Source of the DNA: an uncultured Cetobacterium sp.
Lineage (GTDB): Bacteria; Fusobacteriota; Fusobacteriia; Fusobacteriales; Fusobacteriaceae
Assembly (NCBI GenBank): GCA_949293295.1
Contig: CASFCG010000001.1
Coordinates: 1 to 54,091, forward strand
Length of the DNA: 54,091 nt
Direction of reading: 5' to 3'
Part shown: positions 5,769 through 46,291 of the stretch, piece by piece
Position numbering within the stretch: the first letter of the stretch is position 1
Layout of the letters: each line of letters opens with the position of its first letter
Position numbers and translations under genes: made by a program
The notes under the pieces: generated by a model
What the model was told of the DNA's origin: nothing
The model's input: the letters and a program-made list of their open reading frames with translations, nothing else
Database searches by the model: none

Positions 5769-6857
5769 ATGTTATACATTTTAGCTGAAAGATTTTTGAC
5801 TATTGAATGGATGAAATCAATATATTTCAGAAGTTTTTTAGGATTTATATTGGGATATATGATAGTTATTATTGTTGGAAAGCGTTTTATAGAGTTTTTA
5901 AAAAAGAAAAAATTTGGAGAATCTATAAGAGAAGAAGGACCTATTTCACATTTTTCTAAAAAAGGAACTCCCACGATGGGAGGTGTCTTGATAATATTTA
6001 GCACTTTGTTTGTAGTGTTATTGGTAGCGGATTTGAGAAATAGATTTATACTGTTGCTGTTTTTAACCACACTATTATTTAGCAGTATAGGATTTATAGA
6101 TGATTTTAAGAAATTTACAGTTAATAAAAAAGGACTATCAGGAAAGAAAAAATTGATGGGACAGCTTATGATATCGGTTATTCTATGGGGATTCATAGAG
6201 AGATTTGGATTAACAGGGAATACAACAGTAGATTTCTCAATTATAAATCCAATTCTTAAGAGTTCATATTTTTACATTGGTTCTGTTGGATTTTTTGTTC
6301 TTGTAGCATTAATTCTAATGGGAACCTCAAATGCTGTAAATATAACAGATGGACTTGATGGATTGGCGATAATGCCGGTAATTATAGCAATGACTATATT
6401 AGGAATAATAACATATTTTACTGGTCATATAGAATTGAGTACGCATCTAAATTTATATTATATAGTTGGAATAGGTGAGGTGGTTATATTTATTTCAACT
6501 TTGATAGGAGCTGGTCTTGGATTTTTGTGGTATAACTTTTACCCAGCACAGATATTTATGGGAGATACAGGTTCCTTAACTCTCGGGGGGATATTAGGAG
6601 TGATAGCTGTACTTTTAAAACAGGAGATATTACTGATAGTTATAGGAGGGGTGTTTGTAATAGAAGCTCTCTCTGTTATACTTCAAGTTGGTTCTTTTAA
6701 GATGAGAGGAAAAAGGGTTTTTAGAATGGCACCTATTCATCACCACTTTGAGTTAAAAGGATTGCCAGAAACAAAGGTTACGATGCGTTTTTGGATAATT
6801 GCTATATTTTTAGGAGTAATAGCCTTAGGAATGATTAGATTGAGAGGAATATTATAA
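5769..6857 (+). CDS. mraY: Phospho-N-acetylmuramoyl-pentapeptide-transferase
   Basis: Integral inner-membrane enzyme that transfers phospho-MurNAc-pentapeptide to undecaprenyl phosphate, forming lipid I. The 362-residue length and about ten hydrophobic segments fit the family. Conserved cytoplasmic loops are visible: the early GTPTMGG block, TDGLDGLA, the MGDTGSL loop and the APIHHHFE histidine loop near the C-terminus. It lies 20 bp after murF with AAGGAG before the ATG. A hairpin followed by a U-run sits between it and the next gene and may act as an attenuator. Confidence 0.96.
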   Translation: MLYILAERFLTIEWMKSIYFRSFLGFILGYMIVIIVGKRFIEFLKKKKFGESIREEGPISHFSKKGTPTMGGVLIIFSTLFVVLLVADLRNRFILLLFLTTLLFSSIGFIDDFKKFTVNKKGLSGKKKLMGQLMISVILWGFIERFGLTGNTTVDFSIINPILKSSYFYIGSVGFFVLVALILMGTSNAVNITDGLDGLAIMPVIIAMTILGIITYFTGHIELSTHLNLYYIVGIGEVVIFISTLIGAGLGFLWYNFYPAQIFMGDTGSLTLGGILGVIAVLLKQEILLIVIGGVFVIEALSVILQVGSFKMRGKRVFRMAPIHHHFELKGLPETKVTMRFWIIAIFLGVIALGMIRLRGIL

Positions 6858-6914: not shown

Positions 6915-9308
6915 ATGAAAAAAGCTATGGTATTTGGGGCAGGAGTTAGTGGAAAAGGAGCAGAGAGATTATTAAAAGAGCTTTCTTACGAGGTGTATTT
7001 AGTGGATGATAAAGTTGCCATCTCCTCTGAGGAGGCAATAGAGATAATGGATTCTGAAAAAATAGAGTTGTTTGTGAAAAGTCCAGGAACCCCTTATAAT
7101 GATTTAGTAAAAAAGATAATGGTAAATAATATTGAACTTATAGATGAGATAGAGTTAGGATATAGATATAAAGTTTTGAAAAATATATCTGGAAAGATAA
7201 TAGCTATAACTGGAACAAATGGAAAAACTACGGTAACATCTAAAATAACGGAGTTATTAAATAAAGCAGGGTATAGAGCAGAGTTTTGTGGCAACATAGG
7301 TGTTTCTTTTGGTGAGAAACTTTTAGAAAAAAGAGAGTTGGATTTTTACGTTTTAGAGTTAAGTTCTTATCAACTGGAAAATCTTAAAGAGTTCAAAGCG
7401 GATATTGCTATGGTTATAAATTTAGTGCCAGACCATTTGACAAGATATAGAGATGAAGTGGAATATTATGATACAAAGTTTAATATAGGAAAAAATCAAA
7501 CCGATGAGGATTATTTTATTGTTAATGAATTATCTGATGAGATATTGAAGAGAGTTGATAAGATAAACGCAAAAAAAATAGTGATTTCAGAAAAAAATAA
7601 AGGTGATATCTATTCAAGTGAAGGGGTAATTTATTATAGAGAACAACCAATTATAGAGGAAAAAAATCTTGCCCTAAAAGGAAAGCATAATCTTGAAAAT
7701 TGTTATTTTATTATAGCTGTAGCAAAGATATTGGATATTTCAAACGAATTGATAAAAGAGTTTTTATCCACTACAAAAACTCTTGAACATAGAATGGAAG
7801 AGTTTTTTGAATATGGAAAGATAAAATTTGTAAATGACTCAAAGGCAACAAACATAGAGTCAACAAATTTTGCGATAGAGGCTTACAAAAATCCTATATT
7901 GATTTGTGGTGGATATGATAAAAAACTGAATTTGATGCCACTAATTCAAAAAATAAATGAATTGGTTAAAGAGGTGTTCTTGATAGGTGCCATATCTGAT
8001 GAGATAGAGCAAGAGTTGAGAGAGATTGGATATAGAAGTTCTAAGATACATAATTTAAGGGATATAGAGAGTGTTATAAAGTATTTGAGAAAAAATCTGA
8101 ATCCAAATAGGCAGGAAACAATACTTTTTTCACCAGCTACTTCAAGTTTTGACCAGTTTAAAGATTTTGAGGAGAGAGGAGAGACTTTCAAAACAATCGT
8201 AAAAAATATATTTGGAGAAGAGGGAAAATCTAAAAACAAGAAAGTTCTTATAACAACTGGAGGAACAGGAGGACATATATATCCAGCGTTGGCGGTTGGA
8301 AAAAAATTAATTGAGAATGGTGTAGATGTATTGTTTGTAGGAAGTAATAGTCGAATGGAGAAAGAGCTTGTATTGAATGAAGGGGTTAGATTTAAAGGTA
8401 TAGATATATACCCATTTAAAAGAATAGGAAGATTATTTTCAAATATAAAAGCGTTCATACAAGCATTAAAAATAATGAAAAGAGAGAAGCCAGATGCGGT
8501 AATGGGCTTTGGAAATTATATCTCAATTCCAATCTTGCTTATGGCGGTATTATTTAGGAAAAAAATATATCTTCAAGAACAGAATGTAAAGTTGGGAATG
8601 GCAAATAGATTTTTTTATAAATATGCTAAAAAATGTTTTCTGGCGTTTGATGAGACTTTTGAGGATATACCAATCAAAAATCAACATAAATTTATGGTAA
8701 CTGGAAATCCATTGAGGGCTTCGATATACTCTCTTTCAAAGGAAGAGGAGAGGGAACGATTAAAAATAGGAAAAAATGAAAAAATATTGTTGATAACTGG
8801 CGGAAGTTTGGGAGCAACCTCGATAAATAGTGCAGTAATAAGGAAGATGAAAGAGATTTATATGGATAAAACTATTAGAATATATTGGGCTACAGGAAAG
8901 GAAAATTTTCAGAAGATAAATCAAGAATTAAAAACAGATTATATAAAAGTTACAGATGTAGTAAAACCATATTTTTCAAATATGATAGAGATAATGGCAG
9001 CAGCAGATTTAGTTGTATGTAGAGCTGGAGCTTTGACAATATCAGAGGTCATAGAGTTGGAAAAACCTACAATATTAATTCCGTACGGAGCTACAAAGGT
9101 AGGGCAGTATGAAAATGCTATGGTTTTATCTGAAAAATCAGCAGGTTTAGTATATTCAAATTCAAAAGCAGAGGAAGCGATAGAAAAAGCGTTGGAACTT
9201 ATAAAAGATGAAAATGAATTGGAAAAAATGTCTAGAAGAATAAGAAAATTGAAAAGAGTTAATCCATCAGAGATAATAGTTGAGAACTTGGATATTTGGA
9301 GGAACTAA
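6915..9308 (+). CDS. MurD-MurG fusion: UDP-MurNAc-L-Ala--D-Glu ligase / lipid II-forming GlcNAc transferase
   Basis: One uninterrupted 797-codon frame holds two complete enzymes. Residues 1 to about 431 are MurD: GAGVSGKG near the start, ATP loop GTNGKTT (100-106), YQLE substrate motif, and the usual C-terminal block ATSSFDQFKDFEERG. After a linker of about ten residues, residues 442-797 are MurG, opening with KKVLITTGGTGGH (the UDP/lipid I glycine loop) and containing the QEQN and GNP(L)R blocks of GT28. The junction (8205-8245) has no stop and no ATG, GTG or TTG codon. ftsW, which usually separates murD and murG, is absent. MurD is soluble and MurG is peripheral on the inner leaflet, so fusion would bring MurD to the membrane near MraY. 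ATG at 6915 has AGGAGG upstream. murC begins at its stop codon. Confidence 0.93.
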   Translation: MKKAMVFGAGVSGKGAERLLKELSYEVYLVDDKVAISSEEAIEIMDSEKIELFVKSPGTPYNDLVKKIMVNNIELIDEIELGYRYKVLKNISGKIIAITGTNGKTTVTSKITELLNKAGYRAEFCGNIGVSFGEKLLEKRELDFYVLELSSYQLENLKEFKADIAMVINLVPDHLTRYRDEVEYYDTKFNIGKNQTDEDYFIVNELSDEILKRVDKINAKKIVISEKNKGDIYSSEGVIYYREQPIIEEKNLALKGKHNLENCYFIIAVAKILDISNELIKEFLSTTKTLEHRMEEFFEYGKIKFVNDSKATNIESTNFAIEAYKNPILICGGYDKKLNLMPLIQKINELVKEVFLIGAISDEIEQELREIGYRSSKIHNLRDIESVIKYLRKNLNPNRQETILFSPATSSFDQFKDFEERGETFKTIVKNIFGEEGKSKNKKVLITTGGTGGHIYPALAVGKKLIENGVDVLFVGSNSRMEKELVLNEGVRFKGIDIYPFKRIGRLFSNIKAFIQALKIMKREKPDAVMGFGNYISIPILLMAVLFRKKIYLQEQNVKLGMANRFFYKYAKKCFLAFDETFEDIPIKNQHKFMVTGNPLRASIYSLSKEEERERLKIGKNEKILLITGGSLGATSINSAVIRKMKEIYMDKTIRIYWATGKENFQKINQELKTDYIKVTDVVKPYFSNMIEIMAAADLVVCRAGALTISEVIELEKPTILIPYGATKVGQYENAMVLSEKSAGLVYSNSKAEEAIEKALELIKDENELEKMSRRIRKLKRVNPSEIIVENLDIWRN

Positions 9309-10645
9309 TGGAAAAGATATATTTTATAGGGATAAATGGAATAGGAATGAGTGGATTAGCTAAAATATTAAAGTTGAAAGGAAAAGAGGTTTTTGGTTCA
9401 GATATTTCTAGAAGTTATGTGACAGAAGAGTTAGAAGCTTTGGGAGTAAAGGTACATGATAGACAGATTGCTGAGAATATAAAAGAGATTGACACTGTAG
9501 TGATATCAACTGCAATAAAAGAAATGAATCCAGAGCTACAAGAGGCTAAGAGATTAGGGATAAAGGTAATGAAAAGAGGAGAATTATTAGCTTTTTTAAT
9601 GAACGCAGAAAAAGGAATTGCAGTTGCAGGAACGCATGGAAAAACGACAACAAGCTCAATGTTATCATCAGTGCTTTTAGATAAGGACCCAACTGTGATA
9701 GTGGGAGGGATAGTTCCAGAGATTTCATCAAATGCAAAGATAGGAAAGGGAGAACTTTTTATAGTTGAAGCTGATGAAAGTGATAACTCATTTTTACACT
9801 TGTATCCAGAGATTTCAATAGTTACAAATATAGAGTCAGACCATTTAGAACATCATGGAAACTTAGATAACATTATAAAATCATTTGAAAAGTTTTTAAA
9901 TCAGACTAAATCTGAAAGATTACTTTGTGTTGATTGTCCAACAATAAGGCGACTGATAAGAGATAAGAAAAATATAAAAACATACAGTCTAATAGATGAG
10001 AAAGCTGACATATATGCAAAAGAGATAAGGATTGATGATGGAAAAACTAAATTTACAATAGTCATAGATGGAGAGATTTTTGGAGAGTTTGAACTATCTA
10101 TTCCAGGAAATCATAATGTTCAAAATGCATTGCCTGTAGTATATTTAGGAAAGAGATTTGGAATTTCAAGGGAAAGAATAGCCGATAGATTGAAAAATTT
10201 TAAGGGAGCTAAGAGAAGATATGATATACTTTTTGACAGGAATATTAGGATTATAGATGATTATGCCCACCATCCCACAGAGATAAAAGCTACATTACAG
10301 GGGGCGAAAAGTATAGAAAAAAATAGGATTATCACTATTTTTCAACCTCATAGATATAGTAGAGTGAATTTTTTATTAAATGAGTTTAAAGATAGCTTTA
10401 AAGATTCTGATGAGGTAGTTTTGCTTCCAATATATAGTGCGGGCGAGCAAAATATATTTGGAGTAACTTTAGAAGAACTAAAAGAGAGAATAAATCATCC
10501 AAAAATAAAGATATTAAATGAATTAGAGAAACTAGAAAGCATTGTAAATCTAGAAGAAAAAGGTGTAACATATATTTTTATGGGAGCAGGAAATATATCA
10601 AATGTAGCACATAGGATTGCAGAAAAGTTAAAGGGGGAGATTTAA
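9308..10645 (+). CDS. murC: UDP-N-acetylmuramate--L-alanine ligase
   Basis: Mur ligase that adds L-Ala to UDP-MurNAc, the first peptide-forming step. The 445-residue protein begins with the nucleotide-fold signature IGINGIGMSGLA and carries the ATP loop AGTHGKTTT (about 107-115) and the C-terminal DDYAHHPTE block typical of MurC. The frame is open from a TTG at 9296, but ATG at 9308 is chosen: GGAGG (9298-9302) sits 5 nt upstream, and the ATG overlaps the murD-murG stop by one base (TAATG), which implies translational coupling. Confidence 0.95.
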   Translation: MEKIYFIGINGIGMSGLAKILKLKGKEVFGSDISRSYVTEELEALGVKVHDRQIAENIKEIDTVVISTAIKEMNPELQEAKRLGIKVMKRGELLAFLMNAEKGIAVAGTHGKTTTSSMLSSVLLDKDPTVIVGGIVPEISSNAKIGKGELFIVEADESDNSFLHLYPEISIVTNIESDHLEHHGNLDNIIKSFEKFLNQTKSERLLCVDCPTIRRLIRDKKNIKTYSLIDEKADIYAKEIRIDDGKTKFTIVIDGEIFGEFELSIPGNHNVQNALPVVYLGKRFGISRERIADRLKNFKGAKRRYDILFDRNIRIIDDYAHHPTEIKATLQGAKSIEKNRIITIFQPHRYSRVNFLLNEFKDSFKDSDEVVLLPIYSAGEQNIFGVTLEELKERINHPKIKILNELEKLESIVNLEEKGVTYIFMGAGNISNVAHRIAEKLKGEI

Positions 10646-19253: not shown

Positions 19254-21950
19254 ATGAAGCGAAAAAAGCTCTCCTATTGCGTTTTTATAGTTATTTTTTT
19301 GGTACTGGGATACTTAAACTATTTTTCAAAAGAAAAAATGATTGATGAAAAAGAAGCGATAATAGAAACAGTAGACCCCAAGTATGACAATAATGAATAC
19401 AAGATAGAAGCCAAAAAGCAGTATGATTATGTGGAAAAAAAGGAGACACTGTTTGAACTGGCAACAGCAAAATTAAAGAATATGGTTTTGAGTGGAAATG
19501 AGGTTGTTTTAGATCCAAATAGAAATCTATTTTTAAGAAATAATGTTTTAGGGAAGAGTATAAATGGATGGGAGATAAAAACAGAGCAACTTAATTACAT
19601 AAAAAAAGAGGATAAAGTGAATTCAGATGTTGGTTTAGTTGCTCGAAATGAAGAACAAGATATAACAATATCAGGAAAGAGATTTGAAGGAGATAGCACT
19701 CTAACAAATCTTAAACTTGTAGGAGATGTTGCGATAAAAAGCAAGGGAGTAGAGTTTTTAACTCAAAAGGCAAGGTATAATGATAAGGAGAAGCTTTTAT
19801 TTTTGGATGGAGAGATAAAATTAAATAAAAATGAACCGAATGAAAATATAAGTGGAGTTTTTAGAAAGTTAAAATATAACCTAAAAAATTTTGAGCTAGA
19901 AACAGATAAAACTTTTAGTTTAACATACAATGATTTAAAAATATCTGGAGAATGGTTTAAATTTAATACAAAAACGGAAGCTTTTGAAATGTCAGAAGGG
20001 CCAGTAATAAGAGTAGATGATTACGATATCAGGATTAAAAGAGTTTATTCGACAGGTGGAAAAATAGAGTTAGAGGGGGATATATTAGGAACAAATGGAA
20101 TATATAACTTTATAGGGAAAAGAGGTTATTATGACAAGGAAAGCAGAGTATTGACGGTTGAGGGAGATGTTACCATTACAGATAATGAAGGTGGAAAACT
20201 TATAGCGGATAAGATAGAATATAGTTTATCAGATAAGAAAATAGAGTTAACAGATAAAAACGATGTAAAATACAGCGATAAATTAGAAAGAGAGATAGTA
20301 ACAAAGAAAATAATCTACTTAACTGAAGAGAAAAGTGTATTTTTTAAAGATAGGTATAGTTATAAGGATAAAAATTATAGCAGTACGGGAAAAGAGTTTT
20401 ATTACAACAGGAAAGCAGAAAAGGGTTATATTTTAGAGGGAGATATAAGGCAGATAGAAACAGGACAGAGTGTAGCTGGGAATAGGATAGATTTTGATAA
20501 AAGAGAGAGTGAAGCAACAATATTAGGAAAGGGACACTTTGAGAATAAGGACTATATATTAAAAAGTGAGAAGATGATTTATACTGGAAGTAAGGACAAC
20601 ATCAAGTTGCCAGTTTCATTTGAAGCTAAAAGAAAAGGTAAGGATGATGAGGTCTTAAGAGGTGAGGAGGCATACTATAATCTAAAGGATAGTAGGTTAG
20701 AGATAAATAAAAACATTAAATATATATTAAAAAATATGGAAATATCCACAGAAAGTTTGAGCTATGATGAGAAAAGTGGAGTAGGAGAGAGTAAGAAAAA
20801 GATTATTATACATGATAAAGAGAAAGATTTTGATTTAGTAACAGAGAATGTGCAATTTAAAAAAGAGAGTTATATTAAAGGGGATAGTCCATTTTCATTT
20901 AAAAGCAAAGAGATGGAGATGAATGGAAAAGGATTTTATTATAATTTAAAAACTGGAGAGATAACTAGTTCAAATAGTATTGAGATAAGAAATAGAACGG
21001 ATGTTGGAAACGTAAATAATGGTAAATACAACACTAAGACTCAGATTTTTACGGGAGAAAGGTTTATAGGAGATTCAGTTAGTGGGAGTTTAAAGAGTGA
21101 TATTATAATTTATAATCTAAAGAAAAGAGAGATTATACTAGAAAAAGATGTAACTATAAAAAGAGAAGATATTGTTGTAAAAGGGAAGCAGATATGTTAT
21201 GACGAAAATAAAGAAACTATTCGTTCTGAAAAACCTTTTGATATTGAAAGTTCAGATTTTAAAATATCTTCAAAAAGTGGACAAATTGATTTGAGAAGTA
21301 AAATCATTTCTTCAGAGGATGTGGTAATAAAAGATAGCAGTGATAATGAGATAAAAAGTGAAGCTATGCGAGGAAATTACCAAAGAATGCAGTTTGAATT
21401 TATAGGAAAAGTAATAGGGAAGCTGTATAGTAAGGGAGAAAGAGTTGATATATCCTCTAGTAAAGTGAAAATAAATTTAAAAAATATATCTGAAAATAGA
21501 TACGAGGTAGAGGAGATTGAGGCATTTGAAAACTCGGAGATAAAGAGGAAGATTGGAAATATAAGAGCAAACTATCTTCATACAAAATTAAATAAAAAGT
21601 TCATAACTGCTAAGGATAAAGTGATTGCTCTGTTGAAAGACAAAAACGGAGTAGAAACTGAGTTAAAAGCTGAAAATTTAGATTTAGATGTGGAGAATGA
21701 GGTCGCAACAGCTAGAGAGAATGTAGAGATTAAGCGACCAAGTAAAAAAGGGATTCTTTTATCAAAGTCCCAAACGGCACAATTAAATAATAAGGAAAGA
21801 ATGATAAAATTGACAGGAAGTGTAGAATTGAATGATGGTGAGACTAAGGTAAAAGCTGGAAAAATAGATTATAATATTATAACTAATAAGATAAAAGCTA
21901 GAGAAAATATATCAGTTGAGTATATTGGAAAAAGTAAGGAGAAGAAATGA
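19254..21950 (+). CDS. Very long LptC/LptA (OstA)-like LPS-transport protein, 898 aa
   Basis: Not a standard family member, but best read as a periplasmic lipopolysaccharide-bridge protein. One N-terminal transmembrane anchor (about residues 6-23) is followed by roughly 870 residues made of short alternating beta strands with the OstA-type rhythm: a Y-N/D-x-x-x-x-x-L turn followed by a GDV-T/I strand, repeated more than ten times (for example [17 protein letters not shown] and [17 protein letters not shown]). LptC is normally about 190 residues and LptA about 185, so this is four to five times longer. It overlaps lptB by 4 bp (ATGA), which ties it to LPS export. The N-terminal part probably fills the LptC role and the remainder could form an LptA-like bridge. 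There is no separate lptA or lptD in the window. Confidence 0.7.
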
Positions 21951-34237: not shown

Positions 34238-34681
34238 ATGGAGAGTGTTATTGTAAGAGTAAAGAGAGAGAATGGAGTTGAGTTGCCACAGTACATGACG
34301 GTTGGTTCTGCAGGGATGGATGTGAAAGCAAATATTGATGTGCCAGTTACATTAAAAACTTTAGAGAGATGTTTGATTCCAACTGGTTTGAAATTAGAGA
34401 TACCATTTGGGTATGAGATACAGGTCAGACCAAGAAGCGGATTAGCTCTAAAAAATGGTGTAACTCTTCTTAATTCACCGGGAACAATAGATTCTGACTA
34501 TAGGGGAGAGATTGGAATCATATTGATAAATCTTGGAAAAGAGGATTTTGTCATAAATCCAAGGGAGAGAGTTGGACAAATAGTTTTACAGAAAGTTTAT
34601 AAAATGGAGTTTGAAGAGGTGGAAGAACTTTCAGAAACTGTCAGGGCAGAAGGTGGATTTGGACATACTGGAAAGAGATAA
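34238..34681 (+). CDS. dut: Deoxyuridine 5'-triphosphate nucleotidohydrolase
   Basis: Trimeric dUTPase that hydrolyses dUTP to dUMP and pyrophosphate. All five family motifs are present in the 147 residues: GSAGMDVKA, RPRSGLALKNG, LNSPGTIDSDYRGE, RVGQIV, and the glycine-rich C-terminal arm RAEGGFGHTGKR. ATG at 34238 has GGAGG just upstream, 9 bp after the M16 peptidase. Confidence 0.97.
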   Translation: MESVIVRVKRENGVELPQYMTVGSAGMDVKANIDVPVTLKTLERCLIPTGLKLEIPFGYEIQVRPRSGLALKNGVTLLNSPGTIDSDYRGEIGIILINLGKEDFVINPRERVGQIVLQKVYKMEFEEVEELSETVRAEGGFGHTGKR

Positions 34682-34740
34682 AAATGCTGTAGTTTGATGG
34701 AAAGAAAAAATATTAGTTATATAAAAATGTGGAACTGTAC

Positions 34741-34770
34741 TTGAAAATCTGAAAAAAGTGAAGTTATAAA
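34741..34770 (+). promoter_or_regulatory. Possible promoter before the RluA-like gene
   Basis: -35 TTGAAA (34741-34746), 18-bp spacer, -10 TATAAA (34765-34770). The 157-bp gap after dut is long for this operon, which supports an internal start. The spacer is one base longer than ideal and there is no TGn. Confidence 0.45.
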
Positions 34771-34838
34771 AAGATATAGTAAAGATGGATATGTTCATTA
34801 ACAAAAAATGATAAAGGAGATTATATAGGAATAGATTT

Positions 34839-35699
34839 ATGGAATACATAGTGGATAAAAACTTTGAAAATGTAAGATTGGACAGATTTTTAAGAAAATA
34901 TTGTTCTGAGATTGCATTGACGGAGATTTTTAAGGCTATAAGAACTGGGAAAATTAAAATTAATGGGAAAAAATCTAAGGAAAACTATAGATTACAATTG
35001 GGAGATTCAGTAAAGATATTTTTAGATTTAAATGAGAAAAAAGAAGAATTCATAACTTTATCTTCAAAAGAGATGGATTTTTTAAGAGAGGGTATTGTTT
35101 ATGAGGATGAAAGAGTTGTAATTTTTGATAAAAAATCTGGTATTGTGATGCATAAGGGAAGCGGATATGAATACGGAATATCAGAGATGTTTAAGAGCTT
35201 TTATCAAACAGAAGAGTTTAATTTTGTGAATAGAATAGATAGACTTACAGCTGGACTGGTGATTGGGGCTAAAAACCTTATGGTAACAAGGGAGTTAGCA
35301 GAAGAGATTAGAGATGGAAATGTTGATAAAAAGTATTATGTATTGGTTGAAGGAGTTATAAAAACAGAGAGCTTTCAGATAAAAAGTTATTTAAAGAGGA
35401 TAGAGGATAAGGTTGTCGAGTTAAAGAGATATGAACCTGGAGCTAAGGAGAGTGTATCTTATTTTAAAGTATTAAAAAGAGGAAAAAGAAGAACTATATT
35501 AGAGGCACAGTTGGAAACAGGAAGAACTCATCAACTACGGGTTCAACTTTCATCGTTTGGACATCCGATAGTCGGGGATGTTAAGTATGGAAAAAAAGAT
35601 AAGCAGATGTTTTTATATTCATATCTATGTGAGATAAAGAGATATAAATTAAAGATTGAGCAGGAATTGCCAAAGGAGTTTTTAATAAATTTAAATTGA
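34839..35699 (+). CDS. RluA-family RNA pseudouridine synthase
   Basis: 286 residues: an N-terminal S4 RNA-binding domain (about 10-62, with RLDRFLRKY and IKINGKK) and a pseudouridine synthase domain. The catalytic aspartate is D134 in NRIDRLTAGL, followed by the family blocks LETGRTHQLRVQL and GHPIVGDVKYG. It resembles RluC/RluD enzymes that modify 23S rRNA, although the exact site is not determinable. A 10-bp terminator hairpin follows its stop directly. Confidence 0.92.
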   Translation: MEYIVDKNFENVRLDRFLRKYCSEIALTEIFKAIRTGKIKINGKKSKENYRLQLGDSVKIFLDLNEKKEEFITLSSKEMDFLREGIVYEDERVVIFDKKSGIVMHKGSGYEYGISEMFKSFYQTEEFNFVNRIDRLTAGLVIGAKNLMVTRELAEEIRDGNVDKKYYVLVEGVIKTESFQIKSYLKRIEDKVVELKRYEPGAKESVSYFKVLKRGKRRTILEAQLETGRTHQLRVQLSSFGHPIVGDVKYGKKDKQMFLYSYLCEIKRYKLKIEQELPKEFLINLN

Positions 35700-44394: not shown

Positions 44395-46254
44395 ATGTTA
44401 AAGAATATGCTAACTGAAAGTTGTATAACTTTAAATCTACTATCAACAACTAAAAATGATGTAATAGATGAGTTGATAGAACTATTGTATTCAAATGGAA
44501 AAATATCGGATAAAGAGGAGTTTAAAAGGGTTATTTTAAGAAGAGAAGCACAGAGTTCAACAGGGTTAGAAGAGGGGATTGCAATTCCTCATGGAAAATC
44601 AAAAGTCGTGAATGAACCCTCAATAGCTTTTGGATTATCGAAAAATGGGATTGACTATCAATCTTTAGATGGTGAACCATCAAAACTATTTTTTATGATT
44701 GCGGTTCCAGAGAACGCAAATGATGCACATATCGAGACACTTTCACAGTTGACAACACTTTTATTAGATGATGATATTAGGGAGAAACTTCTGAATGTAA
44801 AATCTCCTAATGAGGTTCTTGAAACTCTTTTGAAAGAGGAAAAAAATGAAGAAAAAGAACAAAAGAGTGAAGTTAAAGATAATTATGATGTTTTAGCAGT
44901 AACAGCTTGTCCAACTGGAATAGCTCATACATATATGGCAGCGGAAGCTTTGATGAAGAAAGCGAAAGAGTTAGGCGTTTCAATAAAGGTAGAAACAAAT
45001 GGTTCCACTGGGATAAAAAATAGATTGACAGAAGAGGAGATTAGAAAAGCTAAAGGAATTATTGTAGCTGCTGATAAAAATGTCGAAATGGCTAGATTTA
45101 ATGGAAAGAATGTTGAGATTACAGGTGTTAAAGATGGGATAAAAAGACCAGAAGAGTTGATTTTGAATGCTTTAAATAAAAAATCTCCTATCTATACATC
45201 AAACGAGAATGGAGGAAGTTCAAACTCTACGACAAAAGGAAAAAACAGAATTTATAAGCATCTTATGAGTGGTGTATCAAATATGTTACCATTTGTTGTA
45301 GGTGGAGGAATATTGATAGCTATCTCATTCATGTTTGGGATAAATTCAGCTAATATAAACGACCCTAGTTATAATCCAATAGCTAAACTTTTAAACGATA
45401 TAGGAGGAAAAAATGCTTTTTCTCTTATGATACCGGTATTGGCTGGATTTATAGGTATGAGTATTGCAGATAGACCAGGATTTGCCCCAGCTATGGTAGG
45501 TGGATTGATTGCTGCCAATAATAATGGTGGATTTTTAGGTGGATTGATTGCGGGATTCTTAGGCGGATATGTAGTAGAGTTGTTAAAAAAGGGTTTAGCT
45601 CCTTTACCAGAAAAATTAGATGGATTGAAACCAGTTTTATTTTATCCACTTTTAGGAATATTTATAACTGGTGCTTTGATGTATACAATTATAATTTCAC
45701 CAGTATCAGCTATAAATCAAGGATTGATAGGATATTTAAGTAGATTAGGAACTACCAACATGGTTTTAATAGGAGCGTTGTTAGCTGGAATGATGGCAGT
45801 TGATATGGGAGGACCTATTAATAAAGCGGCTTTTACTTTTGGGATAGCGATGATCACGGCAGGAAACTACTATCCACATGCAGCAGTAATGGCTGGAGGA
45901 ATGGTTCCTCCATTGGGAATTGCAATAGCTACTACGTTATTTAAAAATTATTTTACTGAGGATGAACAAAAAGCTGGGGTAATAAATTATGTTATGGGAG
46001 CATCATTTATTACAGAGGGAGCAATTCCATTTGCTGCAGCTGACCCAATGAGAATTATTCCAAGTTGTGTTGTAGGAGCAGCTATAGCTGGAGGATTATC
46101 TATGATATTTAAATGTCAATTACCAGCGCCACATGGTGGAATTTTCGTTCTTCCTGTTGTAACTAATCCTATGATGTATTTAATAGCAATTCTTGTAGGA
46201 AGTTTTGTTACAGCTTTTATGATTGGATTATTAAAAAAATCTAAAACAAACTAG
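44395..46254 (+). CDS. fruA: Fructose PTS enzyme IIABC
   Basis: Membrane transporter that imports fructose and phosphorylates it at C1. Domain order is A-B-C in 619 residues. EIIA has its phosphorylated H66 in GIAIPHGKSK. A charged linker (145-163) follows, then EIIB with C172 in TACPTGIAHTYM. EIIC has about eight to ten membrane helices, beginning near HLMSGVSNMLPFVVGGG and including the substrate-site region ITEGAIPFAA. Preceded by GGAGGG, 10 bp after fruK, and followed by a strong terminator. A decayed partial copy of its EIIB region lies at 47542-47724. Confidence 0.96.
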   Translation: MLKNMLTESCITLNLLSTTKNDVIDELIELLYSNGKISDKEEFKRVILRREAQSSTGLEEGIAIPHGKSKVVNEPSIAFGLSKNGIDYQSLDGEPSKLFFMIAVPENANDAHIETLSQLTTLLLDDDIREKLLNVKSPNEVLETLLKEEKNEEKEQKSEVKDNYDVLAVTACPTGIAHTYMAAEALMKKAKELGVSIKVETNGSTGIKNRLTEEEIRKAKGIIVAADKNVEMARFNGKNVEITGVKDGIKRPEELILNALNKKSPIYTSNENGGSSNSTTKGKNRIYKHLMSGVSNMLPFVVGGGILIAISFMFGINSANINDPSYNPIAKLLNDIGGKNAFSLMIPVLAGFIGMSIADRPGFAPAMVGGLIAANNNGGFLGGLIAGFLGGYVVELLKKGLAPLPEKLDGLKPVLFYPLLGIFITGALMYTIIISPVSAINQGLIGYLSRLGTTNMVLIGALLAGMMAVDMGGPINKAAFTFGIAMITAGNYYPHAAVMAGGMVPPLGIAIATTLFKNYFTEDEQKAGVINYVMGASFITEGAIPFAAADPMRIIPSCVVGAAIAGGLSMIFKCQLPAPHGGIFVLPVVTNPMMYLIAILVGSFVTAFMIGLLKKSKTN

Positions 46255-46291
46255 AATTATCATTTTAAAATTTGATTAGAGATTGGAAATA

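Follow-up and report, generated by a model that had tools for sequence, protein, structure and literature searches.

A predicted MurD-MurG fusion encoded by a single open reading frame in an uncultured Cetobacterium sp.

Positions 6915 to 9308 (+) of a 54,091-nucleotide contig stretch from an uncultured Cetobacterium sp. (the window, i.e., the whole stretch of DNA that was analyzed) form a single open frame of 797 codons. NCBIfam profile searches detected a complete MurD in the first half of the product (TIGR01087 at residues 4 to 430, 333 bits for a curated cut-off of 212 bits, profile positions 2 to 440 of 441) and a complete MurG in the second half (TIGR01133 at residues 439 to 792, 272 bits for a curated cut-off of 250 bits, profile positions 3 to 353 of 353), the latter with both GT28 domains of Pfam, Glyco_transf_28 (PF03033) and Glyco_tran_28_C (PF04101). 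The MurD module (residues 1 to 433; 6915-8213, +) carries the motifs GTNGKTT (residues 100 to 106), PDH (172 to 174, with H174), K188, NDSK (307 to 310), SPATSSFDQF (406 to 415), and RG (421 and 422), which are kept in a protein alignment, conservative changes aside. The MurG module (residues 443 to 797; 8241-9305, +) carries GGTGGH (449 to 454), EQN (555 to 557), GNPLR (597 to 601), GGSLGA (629 to 634), CRAGALTxSE (702 to 711), and GQ (730 and 731). Both modules were also recognized in a structure model by their matches to known MurD and MurG structures. Since the 797-codon frame matches two full-length families, a chance ORF is excluded, and the fusion is confirmed at the level of sequence. 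We found no second murG in the genome (1.175 Mb in 26 contigs, 82.8% complete).

The fused gene lies directly downstream of mraY (5769-6857, +), which encodes a 362-amino-acid protein 73% identical to the product of the correspondingly placed gene in a congener, and is followed by murC (9308-10645, +), whose ATG overlaps the murG stop. The window also retains ftsA, ftsZ, and ftsQ, encoding FtsA, FtsZ, and FtsQ. Elsewhere in the window, positions 19254 to 21950 encode an 898-amino-acid protein with LptC and LptA/LptD_N matches that is 36% identical to its congener counterpart; the neighboring products are 71 to 85% identical to those of congeners, and we regard it as a putative fast-evolving LPS-transport protein.

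The two modules are joined by a linker of about nine residues, GEEGKSKNK (residues 434 to 442; 8214-8240, +), delimited by a helix before it (418 to 433), a strand after it (443 to 448), and the pLDDT of the model. In the 11 congeners (L002 to L012), which share the gene order of the window and whose MurD and MurG are 56 to 61% and 62 to 67% identical to its two halves, murD and murG are separate and abutting, with only a few bases between the stop of murD and the start of murG and with the murG ribosome-binding site (RBS) overlapping or adjoining the murD stop. In 4 of them (L002 to L005), the two genes are in the same frame. The TAG stop and the ATG start that stand between the congeners' genes are, in contrast, absent from the window: alignment and junction DNA place GAA (E435; 8217-8219, +) at the murD TAG, the alignment places AAA (K440; 8232-8234, +) at the murG ATG, and the window junction contains one extra codon, a 3-base length difference. 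There is no stop around the junction and no in-frame ATG, GTG, or TTG between residue 405 and the TTG of residue 459 (8289-8291, +), the first such codon after the junction. This TTG lies beyond the GGTGGH loop, inside the MurG N-terminal domain, and a start there would drop the first strand of MurG together with the loop. Both complete domains are thus found in one frame with no internal stop and no usable internal start, as in a fused bifunctional Mur enzyme. The sequence GGAGAAGAGGG (8214-8224, +), which now codes for GEEG, occupies the position of the TAG stop and Shine-Dalgarno (SD) sequence of the congeners. Its predicted anti-SD pairing energy is -7.1 kcal/mol, compared with -5.6 to -8.3 kcal/mol at real murG sites (n = 9 congeners), consistent with a relic of an RBS. 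A preliminary description of this DNA had reported a complete MurD and MurG in one frame, with GTNGKTT and GGTGGH at the same residues as given above, with no stop or usable start at the junction, and had suggested that the fusion arose when the stop and the start were lost beside what looks like a leftover RBS; each of these points is supported by the curated cut-offs, the motif coordinates, and the junction alignment.

The preliminary description had also proposed looking for the same fusion in related fusobacterial genomes and dating it on a tree. We searched 98 genomes, 97 of which gave a match, and found the fusion in no other member of the Fusobacteriota among the matches listed; a stop was present at all of the ∼40 junctions that we inspected. 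MurD frames of 817 to 891 amino acids in outgroups had the appearance of MraY-MurD fusions and were rejected, as murD and an ftsW-like gene proved to be separate at the DNA level, with intervening stops. In trees built from MurD, from MurG, and from the two concatenated, the window was sister to the 11 other members of the genus, on a branch of ∼0.43 substitutions per site. These trees place the origin of the fusion somewhere on the single long terminal branch of the window lineage, whose genome is about half the size of those of its congeners. A comparison of 756 ORFs with hits against 1.42 Mb of congener G006 yielded MurD-MurG as the only clean fusion of two neighboring orthologues, showing that stop loss is not widespread in the assembly. 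A second apparent fusion (contig C16, 61337-62119) was rejected, being a single intact TatD whose counterpart in G006 is split.

We modeled the fused protein with AlphaFold2 from 49 aligned sequences. The mean pLDDT was 88.7, with residues 436 to 440 below 50; the MurG half had been poor in an earlier model from only eight sequences. In Foldseek searches, the MurD half matched Escherichia coli MurD (4uag; TM score of 0.87 on the target) and the MurG half matched Pseudomonas aeruginosa MurG (3s2u; 0.89 on the target). The pTM was 0.51, and the model contained no confident interface or fixed arrangement between the halves. The protein is thus predicted to consist of two normal enzyme folds on a flexible linker (residues 434 to 442).

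In the outgroup loci, murD and murG are separated by a gene with a match to FTSW_RODA_SPOVE. None was present at this position in the Fusobacteriaceae loci that we read, where murD and murG already abut. Since the outgroups keep the FtsW/RodA gene and the Fusobacteriaceae genes are already adjacent, ftsW was gone from this site no later than the base of the family, well ahead of the fusion. The earlier suggestion that loss of ftsW brought about the fusion therefore stands as an order of events, in a broad sense only, and is not supported as a direct cause.

A second stop-loss fusion was found in the genus. In congeners G006 (L258, 2194-4452) and G011 (L029), murE and kdsA, the latter encoding KDO8P synthase, form one frame of 749 to 752 codons. 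A CAG stands where the other congeners have a TAA or TAG stop, the TTG start of kdsA is retained, and a new in-frame ATG occurs just downstream. In this genus, genes that abut in the same frame can thus become fused even where metabolism gives no reason for it. As a comparable stop-loss fusion between genes with no shared pathway, it favors an accidental origin of MurD-MurG, and we infer that the fusion was accidental rather than selected.

The genome that carries the fusion has lost genes of wall synthesis. No FtsW/RodA-family gene was found in the assembly (82.8% complete), whereas 95 of the 98 genomes have one. In congener G006, RodA (TIGR02210, above cut-off) is encoded between a dUTPase gene and a pseudouridine synthase gene; in the window, the orthologues of these flanks (34238-34681 and 34839-35699, respectively) are separated by a scar of 157 bases (34682-34838, unstranded). 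Likewise, mrdA (PBP2/MrdA, TIGR03423) is missing on contig C5 (∼46252-46279), where its conserved neighbors lie ∼28 bases apart. Both genes have been cleanly lost at intact sites in this lineage. In addition, mreB1 is missing from each flank of its site (contigs C4 and C11), and a search of the genome detected neither of the two MreB paralogues, nor MreC, although all are present in the 11 congeners. We did not accept the absence of mreB2, mreC, and murE as gene loss, as whole blocks of neighboring genes are missing and may be assembly gaps. Nor did we accept that of ftsW (SEDS2), which adjoins pnp in G006 and lies near a contig start in several congeners; its absence may therefore reflect a gap in the assembly. 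The genome still encodes a class A PBP and one further transpeptidase. Overall, the pattern suggests a lineage without rod-elongation machinery.

Three further observations were made. On contig C22, a Cas1 gene (L202, 17804-18712) lies beside pnp, where G006 has the ftsW-like gene, and a CRISPR locus may now adjoin pnp. Genome G010, of the same genus and 94% complete, has no FtsW/RodA-family match, yet it keeps MreB and a 596-amino-acid PBP2; the missing match may reflect either gene loss or an assembly gap. Genome G012, of the same class (0.8 Mb, 91% complete), has no match to MurD, MurG, Mur_ligase_M, or the FtsW/RodA family and is possibly a wall-less relative of the Fusobacteria.

MurD adds D-Glu to UDP-MurNAc-L-Ala, and MurG, which binds peripherally to the inner membrane face beside MraY, converts lipid I to lipid II; the pathway runs in the order MurD-MurE-MurF-MraY-MurG. 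The best explanation overall, which we consider likely to be correct, is that the fusion is real, that it yields one bifunctional MurD-linker-MurG protein of ∼90 kDa, and that it arose on the lineage's own branch. On this explanation, abutting genes would have fused once the stop of murD and the start of murG had disappeared. The chain would stay uncleaved, both halves would fold, and each would most likely catalyze its own reaction. MurD and MurG would be made in a 1:1 ratio, and MurG, sitting at the inner face of the membrane beside MraY, would hold MurD there too; such a tether is plausible in view of the peripheral membrane association of MurG. The preliminary description had gone further and proposed that the fusion channels precursor toward lipid II. 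In a channeling fusion, the product of one half would be the substrate of the other, whereas the MurD and MurG steps are not consecutive. Since MurE, MurF, and MraY act between them, the established order of the pathway rules out a direct hand-over between the two halves, and only colocalization and equal dosage are possible.

An alternative is that the fusion was selected as a replacement scaffold, the covalent MurD-MurG link compensating for the lost RodA-PBP2/MreB elongation machinery, which is reported, together with MurG, to bring Mur ligases together at the membrane. The deletion of rodA and mrdA at intact sites, the disappearance of mreB1, and the failure to find the MreB paralogues and MreC that 11 congeners possess are in line with this idea, as is a review stating that mutual binding among MurD, MurE, and MurF requires the presence of MreB or MurG (PMC4929429). 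However, MurG, itself reported as a scaffold, is retained, and mreB2 and mreC sit in blocks that are missing from the assembly. The murE-kdsA frame is an example of such a fusion arising between genes with no shared pathway, and a single lineage allows no test of correlation. Moreover, many cocci lack MreB and are not known to carry a MurD-MurG fusion. Compensation for lost MreB is thus an attractive idea that rests on one lineage, and we deem selection of this kind unlikely. Its fuller form, in which the covalent MurD-MurG link has replaced MreB as the scaffold and draws soluble precursor synthesis to the membrane, as a hard-wired form of the proposed Mur metabolon, seems to us quite unlikely.

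Two proteins might instead be produced from the open frame, either by proteolysis of the linker, which is flexible and charged, or by noncanonical internal initiation at the RBS-like site, which retains normal predicted strength. Weak internal initiation at a nonstandard codon is conceivable given that retained sequence. However, no ATG, GTG, or TTG lies near the site, and the downstream TTG at 8289 would cost MurG its first strand and GGTGGH loop, so we hold separate products to be very unlikely. That an error of assembly or sequencing joined two normal genes is highly improbable: the genome is a metagenome-type draft in 26 contigs, 82.8% complete and the only one available for its species, but the stop and the start are both replaced, requiring several changes that a single sequencing error cannot explain, the frame is intact across the 3-base length difference, and general stop loss is not seen in the assembly.

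In the fusion that we favor, a soluble ligase that acts early in the pathway is joined to its final cytoplasmic enzyme, which is membrane associated, at a fixed 1:1 ratio of MurD to MurG. It has long been asked whether the Mur enzymes assemble into a metabolon bound to the membrane. A natural MurD-MurG fusion offers a ready probe for this question, and one from a lineage that lacks a large part of its elongation machinery. Should both halves prove active, the fusion would show that MurD tolerates confinement next to MurG. At the same time, the murE-kdsA frame cautions against taking every fusion as evidence of channeling.

We found no report of a MurD-MurG fusion in the literature, and the NCBIfam matches listed include models of MurE/MurF, MurF/Alr, and MurC/Ddl fusions, with no MurD/MurG model among them. 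A review names murE/murF, ftsW/murG, and murG/murC fusions and not murD/murG (PMC4929429). Mur fusions are thus of a known kind, and the MurD/MurG pair is apparently new. MurB/MurC of Verrucomicrobium, which complements E. coli mutants, and MurC/Ddl of Chlamydia are likewise lineage-restricted bifunctional peptidoglycan enzymes, but they combine other pairs without a membrane-associated half (PMC4803751). MurG/MurC and FtsW/MurG (C. gilvus and K. flavida) share MurG as a partner, and the MurG/MurC steps are also nonconsecutive; in these actinomycetes, however, the partner is MurC or FtsW and MurD is not involved (PMC4929429). The MurE-MurF fusion of Bordetella pertussis, which is reported to bind MurG, similarly unites two Mur enzymes of neighboring genes in one polypeptide through a flexible linker (PMC6420597). 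Its halves are consecutive soluble ligases and its linker has ∼20 residues (PMC6420597), whereas the second half of the window fusion is a membrane-associated glycosyltransferase and the two steps that it joins are nonconsecutive.
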